Below, piece by piece: positions 4,666-50,937 of a stretch of DNA of 64,000 nucleotides. Position numbers and translations under genes: made by a program. Under the pieces are notes generated by a model that ran no database searches, was not told where the DNA came from, and saw only the letters and a list, made by a program, of their open reading frames with translations. Position 1 is the first letter of the stretch. Each line of letters opens with the position of its first letter. The DNA comes from a virus: positions 17,013 to 81,012 of IMG/VR virus record IMGVR_UViG_3300029267_002354; one strand, written 5' to 3'.

Positions 4666-5733
4666 ATGGCACAGAAGAAGGTCACGACAACCCTCAATGA
4701 GGACATGCAGGTTCTCGGCATCCCGGGTGTCAACATGGCAGAGCAGGCGCGTCTTGGTGGCATCCCTCTGAGCGAAGACAAGGACGAGGGACCGGCCGAT
4801 GACGAGCTTCAGGAGATGATGAAGGAAGGGTACAAGGAGGGCATGACGTGCCCGAAGTGCAAAAAGGGCAAGATGTCCAAGCACAGGTGCCCGGACTGCG
4901 GATTCGAGGTCAAGCCAGAGTATCGCCAGGATCCTGGGAAGCAGGTTGCTGCTTCCACGAACGAGGAGGCCGAGGGCGACGATGAGGTTCATCCCCTCGA
5001 CGCACCTGAAGTGAACGAGGACCTGTTCACTGCGATCATGGACCTTCCGTTTGACGACATGAAGGCCGAGGACGTGGAGGAGGTTCTGGAGGCTCTCAAG
5101 GAGAAGGACCTTCCGGAGGATGCTTCTGACGGGCTGAAGGAGCGTGCCGAGGAGGTCGTGGACTTCCTGATCGAGGCTGTGGCGAAGAAGACCCGTCGGG
5201 CGAAGGCTGGATCGATGGCGAAGAAAGCCTCCTTCCAGTGCCCTCCCGGAACCCGGAAGGACCCAAAGGACAAGGCTGGCCGTCGGTGTATCCGCGCCGC
5301 GAAGGCCGCTGGTGGATCAGGCAAGCTCGCCAAGGAGACCCGCAAGAAGGGTCGCTGGGCGAAGTCCGGCAAGGGCAAGAAGTCTGCTCGCAAGTCGTCT
5401 CGTTGGGCTGCCCGTCGTGAGGACATCCAGTCGCCGTTCGCTGCTGAACTGCATGGACTCCTAGAGGATACGCAGGAAGAGATCCAGGAGAGCGTGCGCG
5501 ACGAGATCATCGAGCGCATTGGCGACATCCTGGAGATGTTCTGCGAGGAGTTCAACGATGAGGCCGTGACGCGCGTCTTCGAAGAGGCGTACGAGCCGGT
5601 GCTTTCTTCCATGGAATCCGGGCGTCTGGACGAGGACGTCATGGACGAGGACGAGTTTGTCGCTGAAATCAAGCCACTGGTGACGCTGATCCACAAGTCG
5701 ATCGAGCGCATCGGGGCCGACTCGGGAAACTGA
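4666..5733 (+). CDS. Zinc-ribbon, Lys/Arg-rich putative prohead core protein
   Basis: A 355-residue protein preceded by GGAG. Residues 62-78 form a four-cysteine zinc ribbon (CPKC...CPDC). A long acidic helical stretch follows, then a second short Cys pair (CPPGTRKD...RRC near 190-205) and a strongly basic block around 215-250 with GRWAKSGKGKK and SRWAARRE. The C-terminal 100 residues are acidic and helical. The patchwork of acidic and basic segments beside the protease suggests a core or internal head protein that could touch DNA. No close family is recognised. Confidence 0.75.
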   Translation: MAQKKVTTTLNEDMQVLGIPGVNMAEQARLGGIPLSEDKDEGPADDELQEMMKEGYKEGMTCPKCKKGKMSKHRCPDCGFEVKPEYRQDPGKQVAASTNEEAEGDDEVHPLDAPEVNEDLFTAIMDLPFDDMKAEDVEEVLEALKEKDLPEDASDGLKERAEEVVDFLIEAVAKKTRRAKAGSMAKKASFQCPPGTRKDPKDKAGRRCIRAAKAAGGSGKLAKETRKKGRWAKSGKGKKSARKSSRWAARREDIQSPFAAELHGLLEDTQEEIQESVRDEIIERIGDILEMFCEEFNDEAVTRVFEEAYEPVLSSMESGRLDEDVMDEDEFVAEIKPLVTLIHKSIERIGADSGN

Positions 5734-5955: not shown

Positions 5956-7593
5956 ATGCCGAATCTGCTGATTGAATCGAATCCAGTAACCATGACACTC
6001 CATGAGAGTGCCGGTGGTAAGGTGATCGCTCGCGGCGAGTATGGTCGTGTTGGCGTTGCGACTCAGAACGGGCGCATCTACCCCGAGAAGCTGATGGAAC
6101 GGGAGATCAATAGGCTGAGTGCCGATCTTTCGAGCCGTCGCGTACTCGGGGAACTGGATCATCCGACGGATGGGAAGACGAGCCTGAAGCGAGTCTCCCA
6201 CGTCATCACCGGTCTCAAGATCAAAGATGGTATCATCATTGGCGAGGCCGAGATCCTCAACACACCTGAAGGGCAGACTCTCAAGGCTCTGATCGAGGCG
6301 AAGGTTCAGATCGGCGTTTCGTCCAGGGGGTTTGGATCCACTCGTCCCTCTGAGGACCCGAAGATGGAAGGTGATGTGGTCCAGGATGACTTCGTTTTGA
6401 AGACCTGGGACTTCGTTGCCGACCCGGCTGTCAAGACGGCCATTCCCGGGATTTTCACCGAGGACGTGGACGAGAACCAGCCTGACATCGCAGAGATGTT
6501 CCTGGCCGAGTTTCCTGACATCGCATCGAAGCTCCAGGAGGACGCTCTCGATCGTGCGAAGCTGAAGGTCAACAAGGGCGTCGAGGAGGCCGTAAAAGAG
6601 GCCGAGGATCGTGTCCGGGCGGAGTTGTCCGAGAAGTTCGAGAAGGGCCTTGCTGAGGCCATCGTGGACGCCAAGGAGCAGCTTAGCGAGGAGCTGCGCG
6701 AGGAGTTCGAGTCCGATCCGGAGATTGGCGGAGCGAAAGCTGCGCTGTCTGCCATCTGGGAGATGGTTGCGCCGTTCAGGGCCACGGATGATGAGGTAGC
6801 ATTGGCAGACGCGGAGAAGGCACGGGAGCTGGAGGTTTCCGAGGCCAAGGACGCGGCTGTGCAGGCGGAGGATCGTGCGGTTCAGGCCGAGTGCATGGCG
6901 TACATCGAGCGTGAGATCAACGGTCATCCGATGGCGGAGTCGATCCGGGGGTTGGTCAAGAAGGCCAAGTTCGACGGGCTCGACGATGCAAAAGAGAAGC
7001 TCGCGGCAATTCTCTCCGATCTTCCGGAGAGGACGGACGAGAACTTTGTCTCCCGCGAGGAGGCTGAGTTGCGCGAAGAAAATGCCGCGATGAAAGAGAA
7101 AGTATCCCTCCTCAGTGAGAGGGTGAATTCGCTGGATAGTAAACTGCGGAGAGCTGTAGAGGTTGGTGACGAGCTGGATGCTCAGCGAGTAGATGCTGAG
7201 GCTCGGGCGCATGAGCTGGAGGAACAACTCAAGGAGACATCTTCGAAGGTTGACTCGATGAAGGGACAACTGGAAGAGGCCGACAAGATGTTGGAACTCG
7301 AAGCGTACAAGCGCGACAAGGTTGCTGGGATGCCAAATGGTAGAGAGCTGAGTAGTCTCCTGGAGGACATCACCTCCAAGGACAAAGTTGATGAGTTGGT
7401 GGCGAAGAGGGGCTATCGGGAGGTCTCCAGTCAGGAGCTGGCCGAGGCGAGGAAGACCCTTGCTCGGGGTGCCGGTGAAAGGCAGGAGGAAGAGAGGCCG
7501 CTGGCCGAAGGAACTGTGTCAACGAGACCGACATCTGACGATCTCGGGAATGACATGTCCTTCATGAAGCGGTTGGCAGGCGTCGGCGAGTAG
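5956..7593 (+). CDS. Prohead protease fused to a scaffold-like coiled coil
   Basis: Protease of the T4 gp21/herpesvirus protease type that matures the prohead. Residues 1-180 carry the fold with His in RVLGELDHP and Ser in IGVSSRG, the expected catalytic pair, plus the WDFVADPAV segment. From about residue 190 to 520 the chain is a highly charged coiled coil (many Glu/Lys/Ala heptads), resembling a scaffolding protein. I start it at the ATG with GAGAGGGTGATG just upstream; an in-frame extension begins at 5800 but has no better binding site. T4 encodes protease and scaffold as separate genes 21 and 22; here they seem to be one 545-residue chain. Confidence 0.88.
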   Translation: MPNLLIESNPVTMTLHESAGGKVIARGEYGRVGVATQNGRIYPEKLMEREINRLSADLSSRRVLGELDHPTDGKTSLKRVSHVITGLKIKDGIIIGEAEILNTPEGQTLKALIEAKVQIGVSSRGFGSTRPSEDPKMEGDVVQDDFVLKTWDFVADPAVKTAIPGIFTEDVDENQPDIAEMFLAEFPDIASKLQEDALDRAKLKVNKGVEEAVKEAEDRVRAELSEKFEKGLAEAIVDAKEQLSEELREEFESDPEIGGAKAALSAIWEMVAPFRATDDEVALADAEKARELEVSEAKDAAVQAEDRAVQAECMAYIEREINGHPMAESIRGLVKKAKFDGLDDAKEKLAAILSDLPERTDENFVSREEAELREENAAMKEKVSLLSERVNSLDSKLRRAVEVGDELDAQRVDAEARAHELEEQLKETSSKVDSMKGQLEEADKMLELEAYKRDKVAGMPNGRELSSLLEDITSKDKVDELVAKRGYREVSSQELAEARKTLARGAGERQEEERPLAEGTVSTRPTSDDLGNDMSFMKRLAGVGE

Positions 7594-13489: not shown

Positions 13490-19164
<5,675 letters not shown>

Positions 19165-49680: not shown

Positions 49681-49884
49681 ATGCGTCTCAACGTAGAAAT
49701 AAAGAAGAACGTGTATGATGAACTCGCGCATCACTGTGCCCGGGAGGGCAAGTCGATCAGCGAGGTTGTTCGCGGACTGGTGACGAATTGGAATGCCAAG
49801 AAGCGCAGGGAGGAGTTTCAAATCCTGCGCACAAGAGAAGGCACTGAAGAGGTGAAAGATGACGGAGAAAAGCGCTCAGGGTGA
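49681..49884 (+). CDS. Ribbon-helix-helix DNA-binding protein
   Basis: 67 residues. Residues 1-45 fit the Arc/CopG fold: a beta strand RLNVEIKKN, helix VYDELAHHCAREG, turn KSIS, helix EVVRGLVTNWNAKK. Such proteins bind direct or inverted operator repeats as dimers. It is the first plus-strand gene after the minus-strand block and overlaps the tail chaperone by 26 bases. Candidate binder of the inverted-repeat family or of the 37-bp array; that is untested inference. Confidence 0.75.
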   Translation: MRLNVEIKKNVYDELAHHCAREGKSISEVVRGLVTNWNAKKRREEFQILRTREGTEEVKDDGEKRSG

Positions 49885-50749
49885 GGGACAGGCCAACATG
49901 GACATGGTAGTCGCCGGAGATGAGAAAGTCGAAGCCCCGAAAACCAAGGGGAATGCGATGGACGTCGGCCCCGGGATCTTGTCTATGGACCTGCCGTGCG
50001 GGTACATTGATGAAGATGGGATCTTGCACGACAAGATTGTCGTGGGGGAGATGACCGGCTACGAAGAGGACATTCTGGCTGGGAAGGGGCCTGTGGTCCC
50101 CCGTCTGAACCAGATCATCGCCAACTGCACAAAACGGTTCGGTGACCTGACCGATAAAAAGGACATCAACGAAGCGGTCACGAACATGACATCTGTGGAT
50201 CGGATGGTGGCACTGATTGCGATCCGTCGAGTCTCCTTGGGTGACTTTTACGATGTGAAGATTCAGTGTCCGGACAGGGAGTGCAAGGCGCAGAATCGGT
50301 TCAGCCTGGATCTCTCCGAGATCGACATCGTCCGGATGAAGGACCAAAAGGCCCGTGTGCGTGAGGATGTTCTGGACTCGGGGCGTCGGGTCAAGTGGCA
50401 TGTCATGAGTGCCGAGGATGAGAGCTGGCTTTCGAAGCACGGAAAGCGCAAAGAGGACATGCTGACGCTGGCGATGCTTTCCAGGATCGACGCTGTGGAC
50501 GTTGCGGGCGAGGATGGGGTCTTGGGGCTCTATGTGATTGATCGGTCGACAAGGGATGGTCATCGGAACGCCATCGCGGCCCTGAAGTCGATCGGGATTC
50601 GGGATAGGAATTTCATCAGGCGGCTTTTCGAGAAGTTCGAAGGATCCGTGGACACTGAGGTCGAGTTCGTTTGTCCATCGTGTGGTCACGAGTGGTCTGC
50701 GGATCTGGACGTCGGGCAAGCGGGTTTTTTCTTCCCATCGGGCACGTAG
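49859..50749 (+). CDS. Tail-assembly chaperone / gp26-like protein, short form
   Basis: 296 residues. MDLPCGYIDEDGILHDKIVV, MTGYEEDILAGKG, a run ending VDRMVALIAIRR and YDVKIQCPDRECKAQNRF fit the gp26-like group, with CPDREC and a final CPSCGHEW forming a zinc site. It lies immediately before the tape measure, where tail-assembly chaperones are encoded. Near its end is a -1 slippery site, so this is the unshifted product of a pair, like lambda gpG. Confidence 0.75.
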   Translation: MTEKSAQGEGQANMDMVVAGDEKVEAPKTKGNAMDVGPGILSMDLPCGYIDEDGILHDKIVVGEMTGYEEDILAGKGPVVPRLNQIIANCTKRFGDLTDKKDINEAVTNMTSVDRMVALIAIRRVSLGDFYDVKIQCPDRECKAQNRFSLDLSEIDIVRMKDQKARVREDVLDSGRRVKWHVMSAEDESWLSKHGKRKEDMLTLAMLSRIDAVDVAGEDGVLGLYVIDRSTRDGHRNAIAALKSIGIRDRNFIRRLFEKFEGSVDTEVEFVCPSCGHEWSADLDVGQAGFFFPSGT

Positions 50750-50937
50750 GTGCCCTTGAGGAGGAAGTCTTTTTTCTCGAAGAGCTGCAGAGCGTTGGCT
50801 ACGATAGTATAATGGCCTTGCCATGGAGCAGAAGGAAGCGGTTTGTCGAGAAGAAGAATGACCTTGAGAAGCGAAAAGCAGACCAGGCCAGACAGGCTGC
50901 GAATCGGGCGAGATCCATGTCACGAAGACGGCGGTGA
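49859..50937 (+). CDS. Tail-assembly chaperone, -1 frameshift form
   Basis: Predicted 359-residue fusion: ribosomes slip at 50725-50731 and continue in the -1 frame, LPIGHVGALEEEVFFLEELQ through a basic helical end (WSRRKRFVEKKNDLEKRKAD, ARSMSRRRR). The -1 frame has no start codon upstream of its conserved-looking part except an internal ATG at 50812, which would cut it short; this favours frameshifting. Equivalent to lambda gpGT. Both ends match the zinc-ribbon/C-terminal basic pattern of gp26-type chaperones. Confidence 0.7.
50725..50755 (+). other. Programmed -1 frameshift site
   Basis: Slippery heptamer T-TTT-TTC in the zero frame (50725-50731), an 8-base spacer, then a perfect hairpin GGGCAC-GTAG-GTGCCC (50740-50755) whose loop holds the zero-frame stop. 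Heptamer, spacing and stem are those of efficient bacterial and phage frameshift signals. Confidence 0.8.

Follow-up and report, generated by a model that had tools for sequence, protein, structure and literature searches.

A gp26-type gene with an overlapping -1 frame

The 64,000-nt window analysed here belongs to an 81-kb virus record with a single gp26-type gene, and further T4-type genes in the window encode the terminase, portal, maturation protease, major head protein, sheath and baseplate wedge. The zero-frame product of the gp26-type gene, hereafter the short form (Table 1), is a member of the T4 gp26 family: it matches PF12322 above the Pfam cut-off (E=1.3e-10) and the baseplate hub family phrog_150 in PHROGs (E=8.7e-15), and its AlphaFold model (pLDDT 84) finds as top BFVD match the 'Baseplate hub assembly protein, bacteriophage T4-like' (E=1.8e-28). 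A PDB fold search with the same model returned no match at E <0.5, and hence no solved structure resembling the short form, while a PDB sequence search found no solved member of the PF12322-type family. The gene start is overlapped by a small ribbon-helix-helix (CopG-like) ORF (49681-49884), and elsewhere the window carries a repetitive, collagen-like tail fibre ORF of 1765 aa (13867-19164) that matches many fibre families.

Table 1. Features of the gp26-type gene and its surroundings, in window coordinates
Feature	Position	Strand	Support
Short form (TAC-N, T4 gp26-type), zero-frame ORF, 296 aa	49859..50749	+	PF12322, phrog_150, BFVD fold match
Alternative in-frame slippery heptamer G_GGT_TTT	50722..50728	+	Not kept in all relatives
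Slippery heptamer T_TTT_TTC, zero frame, starting 22 nt before the zero-frame stop	50725..50731	+	In-frame; kept in 25 sequences
-1 frame extension, 68 aa + stop, predicted C-terminal domain of the long form, gp51 C-terminus-like	50731..50937	+	dN<<dS; aligned with 14 relatives; model
6-bp stem-loop GGGCAC-GTAG-GTGCCC, probable stimulator	50740..50755	+	34-nt fold z=-3.3
Zero-frame stop TAG	50747..50749	+	Sequence
Tape-measure-like protein, 919 aa	50966..53725	+	PF20155 (TMP_3) E=8.6e-4, below Pfam cut-off; position, length

An earlier note on this DNA had described a T-TTT-TTC heptamer, an 8-base spacer, a 6-bp hairpin holding the zero-frame stop and a basic 68-residue -1 extension just before the tape measure gene, and all of these are in place: the heptamer lies in the correct phase (GGT TTT TTC TTC), the spacer spans 50732-50739, the perfectly paired stem arms (50740-50745 and 50750-50755) present the TAG within the GTAG loop, the coding part of the extension (50731-50934, stop 50935-50937) has a pI of 10.5, and the 919-aa ORF starts after a further 28 nt, its tape measure family match remaining below the Pfam cut-off. 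A tape-measure-length ORF likewise lies directly 3' of the gp26-type gene in relatives L001, L005, L006, L010, L011 and L016.

The slip site and its downstream RNA structure

The last zero-frame codons read GCG GGT TTT TTC TTC CCA TCG GGC ACG TAG, such that a -1 slip is predicted to swap the last five residues for 68 and to yield a product of 359 rather than 296 aa, with AGFFLPIGHVG at the fusion junction; the predicted junction peptide would have 66 residues after trypsin digestion and would read WSADLDVGQAGFFLPIGHVGALE after Glu-C. Slippage on the alternative G_GGT_TTT would give an identical fusion product, but of the two only T_TTT_TTC is conserved. The 12-nt block around it, TTTTTTCTTCCC, is invariant in the ten nearest homologues, against a mean column identity of 61% for the alignment. 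With Phe-Phe as the encoded pair, T|TTT|TTC would be chosen by chance with a probability of 0.006-0.19 per sequence, and the combined chance would be 10^-30.7 if the sequences were independent, which they are not fully. Poly-U heptamers are prone to frameshifting in E. coli (PMC4066793).

The 34-nt hairpin fold of the window scores z -3.3 against shuffled sequence, and such a stem at such a distance is found at ~1% of window positions. Strong structures occupy the same place in a 595-kb metagenomic phage (z -5.1), Atu_ph07 (z -3.6) and PA5oct (z -3.1), whereas in L009, L011, L016 and L067 the fold after the heptamer is no better than shuffled. For the 45 nt 3' of the heptamer, the mean z over 24 sequences is -1.0, as opposed to about -0.2 elsewhere, with a range of -0.4 to +0.2 at nine other offsets. 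The 6-bp hairpin was rejected as a conserved element, the structure differing by lineage or being absent, and we read it as an optional stimulator in some lineages and the heptamer as the constant part of the signal.

Conservation of heptamer and -1 frame

Relatives were collected from 19 IMG/VR loci and from the jumbo and T4-like phages of annotated phage records, and the scan of a genome collection contributed one more, on an Acidobacteriota MAG contig. T_TTT_TTC in frame, at a distance of 10-70 nt from the stop, together with a -1 frame that stays open for 52-76 codons, is found in 25 non-redundant sequences, which were chosen for having the heptamer; about 14 other relatives are without the heptamer or without a matching -1 frame. 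Protein identity is 26-67% for the uncultivated relatives among the 25 and falls to about 25% over the whole set, which includes the isolated phages Atu_ph07, PA5oct, PhiW-14, 121Q, RaK2, GAP32, nt-1 (Straboviridae) and S-RIM8 (a cyanophage), as well as ACP17, YB07, SRB7757, SCTP-2 and the 595-kb metagenomic phage. The control set comprised every distinct ORF of at least 100 aa in all fetched sequences, 886 in total. An in-frame heptamer falls within the last 75 nt of 30 of them; 26 represent the gp26-type gene, and all 26 have a long -1 extension, which is lacking in the remaining four. Every late-heptamer ORF with a -1 continuation of at least 40 codons is thus the gp26-type gene.

Elsewhere in the window, in the ORF at 4666-5733 an in-frame GGGAAAC lies 7 nt ahead of the stop, and the -1 frame continues for 73 codons, overlapping the start of the protease gene; this is probably a chance occurrence.

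The earlier note would have abandoned the frameshift had homologues turned out to have the heptamer destroyed and the -1 frame not conserved; instead, relatives keep both. It had also regarded the arrangement as less familiar when it occurs in the gp26-like gene of T4-type phages, a view that has to be revised, as it is widespread in the gp26 genes of the T4 superfamily. The slip site also occupies the corresponding gene of very distant phage relatives and is therefore almost certainly real, and these comparisons argue with near certainty for T_TTT_TTC as a functional frameshift signal.

RNA polymerase slippage on the T6 run could alternatively supply mRNAs for the long form, and in this respect the poly-T run itself, which in the relative L067 reaches nine T in a row, is suggestive. 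Nearly all relatives, however, have only six T, a short run for bacterial transcriptional slippage; moreover, such slippage needs neither the T_TTT_TTC phase nor the final C, yet both are kept in 25/25 sequences, and RNA structure is enriched downstream of the heptamer. We therefore consider a transcriptional origin of the long form very unlikely.

The -1 extension is under protein-level purifying selection

Substitutions in the -1 frame place the extension under protein-level purifying selection, with dN 0.17 and dS 1.8 between the window and L001, dN 0.14 and dS 0.70 between L001 and L003, and dN 0.09 and dS 0.51 between L004 and L006. An AlphaFold model of the extension, at moderate confidence (pLDDT 74.5, pTM 0.44), features three helices (H11-25, H29-34 and H37-72).

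Whether this domain could be translated from a separate gene, the heptamer being incidental, depends on the available starts. The earlier statement that the -1 frame has no suitable start stands insofar as no ATG precedes the heptamer in the window, and needs qualifying insofar as three weak starts do (TTG at 50671 and two GTG). A gene with its own start would also accord with an ATG that overlaps the stop in 121Q, YB07 and nt-1, and with the sister lineages L012-L014, perhaps also Cygsa01, which have the domain as a free ORF. Against it, the window has no ATG before the conserved domain, and L001, L010, L016, PA5oct and SRB7757 have no start codon of any kind from the point where the -1 frame opens up to the conserved segment, so that independent initiation cannot make the extension there; the heptamer is, in addition, conserved in its codon choice. 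A separate gene is hence, in our estimate, slightly less probable still than transcriptional slippage. A sequencing or assembly error that breaks one continuous gene, as might be feared in error-prone homopolymer runs, can be set aside, given that 25 independent sequences, among them the finished genomes of phage isolates, share the layout. A single gene encoding both forms of a T4-type tail assembly chaperone via -1 frameshifting is, by these comparisons, very probably the correct reading.

Relation to T4 gp26 and gp51

T4 gp26 and gp51 both belong to PF12322 and phrog_150, with gp51 running ~45 aa further and its gp26-like part diverged to 20% identity. The ORF after gp26 in PhiW-14 and Cygsa01 matches phrog_634, annotated as 'baseplate hub assembly catalyst', and the same profile recognises T4 gp51 in its C-terminal part. 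The alignment of the extension is too variable to serve as a database profile query, and scanning the fused protein against PHROGs gives a phrog_150 score to which the extension contributes nothing; homology to the gp51 C-terminus is therefore traced through intermediates. Profile comparison of window-type extensions with the PhiW-14/Cygsa01-type downstream ORFs scores 25.0, and that of the gp26-downstream ORFs with the gp51 C-terminus 35.6 (null max 16.9 in both cases), with 0/100 column-shuffled controls reaching the score at either step. The direct profile match between window-type extensions and the gp51 C-terminus is weak (5%), and for this reason we call the extension likely, not proven, to be homologous to the gp51 C-terminus.

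The short form of the window phage would then resemble gp26 and the long form gp51, the helical extensions at the C-termini of the latter two being related. The two systems differ in how the pair is encoded: the T4 record has two divergent genes, whereas the window phage has one gene and a -1 slip site. From these profile relations it looks as though gp26 is the short form and gp51 the long form, for which T4 uses two genes.

Departures from the -1 slip site in related phages

The sister lineages L012-L014 have no heptamer, and their C-domain is a free ORF that starts 1-4 nt past the stop. This ORF, of ~94 aa and located at about 6600-6930, has its start right behind the stop (TAGCATG or TGACGTG) and has its own N-terminal segment of ~40 aa. 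No second gp26-type gene was found in the three records, which are fragments. The gene layout presents the C-domain here as a natural 'unfused' long form. Cygsa01 similarly combines an overlapping TAATG start with the lack of a heptamer.

In SP-15, LIS04 and GXN1 (L071, L073 and L070) the C-domain lies instead in the +1 frame, and NCC CGA, kept a few codons before the stop, is a possible candidate for a +1 frameshift site; an open +1 frame at the end of the gp26-type gene is also seen in BRock, Mel-JY01 and LR756508. Det7, Vibrio D503, phiA8-29 and VPALA have the domain in the -1 frame but lack a canonical heptamer, and the Ackermannviridae and Vibrio phage loci that do without it (L091, L092, L095 and L102) show ATT TTC or CTT TTC before the stop. 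In the Synechococcus phage S-SCSM1 (L089, 1711-1910) T_TTT_TTC is present and the -1 frame closes after 3 codons; its C-domain lies in another frame, which may reflect a sequencing error or a degenerate site.

Such departures suggest repeated changes of mechanism within one gene family, the full series of which may not have been set out before. We tentatively raise the possibility, which we hold to be somewhat less probable than its opposite, that a single gp26 gene with U_UUU_UUC represents the ancestral state of the T4 superfamily and was left several times, for two genes (T4 gp26 and gp51), for +1 shifting (SP-15, LIS04 and GXN1) and for a free, re-initiated C-domain (L012-L014). If this is true, the last of these would mean that a covalent long form is not obligatory.

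Discussion

In the explanation that we propose, the signal, its phase and conservation, the selection on the extension, the gene order and the gp26/gp51 family relation are observed, and from there we infer slippage itself, its rate and a division of labour between the two products. Most ribosomes would read 49859-50749 and produce the 33-kDa gp26-type protein, whereas a minority would slip back by one base on U_UUU_UUC, where the Phe tRNAs in the P- and A-sites could re-pair with UUU UUU, aided in the window phage by the hairpin 8 nt downstream. Having slipped, these ribosomes would miss the UAG and complete a 40-kDa form that ends in a basic C-terminal domain of three helices. If the division of labour follows that of lambda gpG/gpGT, the short form may coat the tape measure protein encoded by the next gene, a few long copies may recruit tail-tube subunits, and both forms would leave before tail completion.

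Frameshifts in tail assembly chaperone genes, including that of lambda gpG/gpGT, were reportedly treated by Xu, Hendrix and Duda in 2004. The lambda-like arrangement proposed at the outset is borne out by the position before the tape measure gene, the -1 slippery heptamer near the 3' end and the predicted short and long forms, and relatives keep both heptamer and -1 frame; the lambda heptamer is G_GGA_AAG as compared with U_UUU_UUC here, and our searches found no sequence or fold match of the window gene to lambda-type chaperones.

A 2016 review describes G/GT frameshifting as widely conserved 'except T4' (PMC5009743), and in a 2010 review gp26 and gp51 are given as hub assembly chaperones, gp51 being described as essential, its function as unknown (PMC3004832). 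Later papers (PMC10885494, PMC12846349) credit Vladimirov, Gautam and Davidson (2022, Virology 566:9) with identifying which proteins are the tail assembly chaperones in T4-like phages; the work is cited for the pairing of a short gene with a fused long gene, with no frameshift, in some T4-like phages (PMC10885494) and, in PMC12846349, for slip signals of the poly-T type in the TAC-N genes of T4-like phages. As both the T4-like chaperones and poly-T signals are in print, the kind is known, and the window adds a member from an uncultivated lineage. The TAC-N/TAC-NC pair of Vandenendeviridae and Andersonviridae (phage Adele) offers a further likeness, being a myovirus -1 frameshift on poly-T inferred from conservation (PMC12846349); its motif is reported as GTTTTT, and the likeness is one of motif type and conservation.

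The main interest lies in how broadly the arrangement is conserved and in the other solutions that related phages have adopted. For annotation, a practical rule follows: the ends of PF12322 genes should be checked for T_TTT_TTC, and where such a site is followed by a small ORF annotated as 'hypothetical protein' or 'baseplate hub assembly catalyst', that ORF will usually be the second half of the long form. In the T4 literature gp26 and gp51 have long been listed as hub assembly factors of unclear function; a T4-type phage in which one slip-site gene would provide both forms backs the view that they are the short and long tail chaperones of T4, and the slip-site gp26 gene would make a simple genetic system in which to test it.
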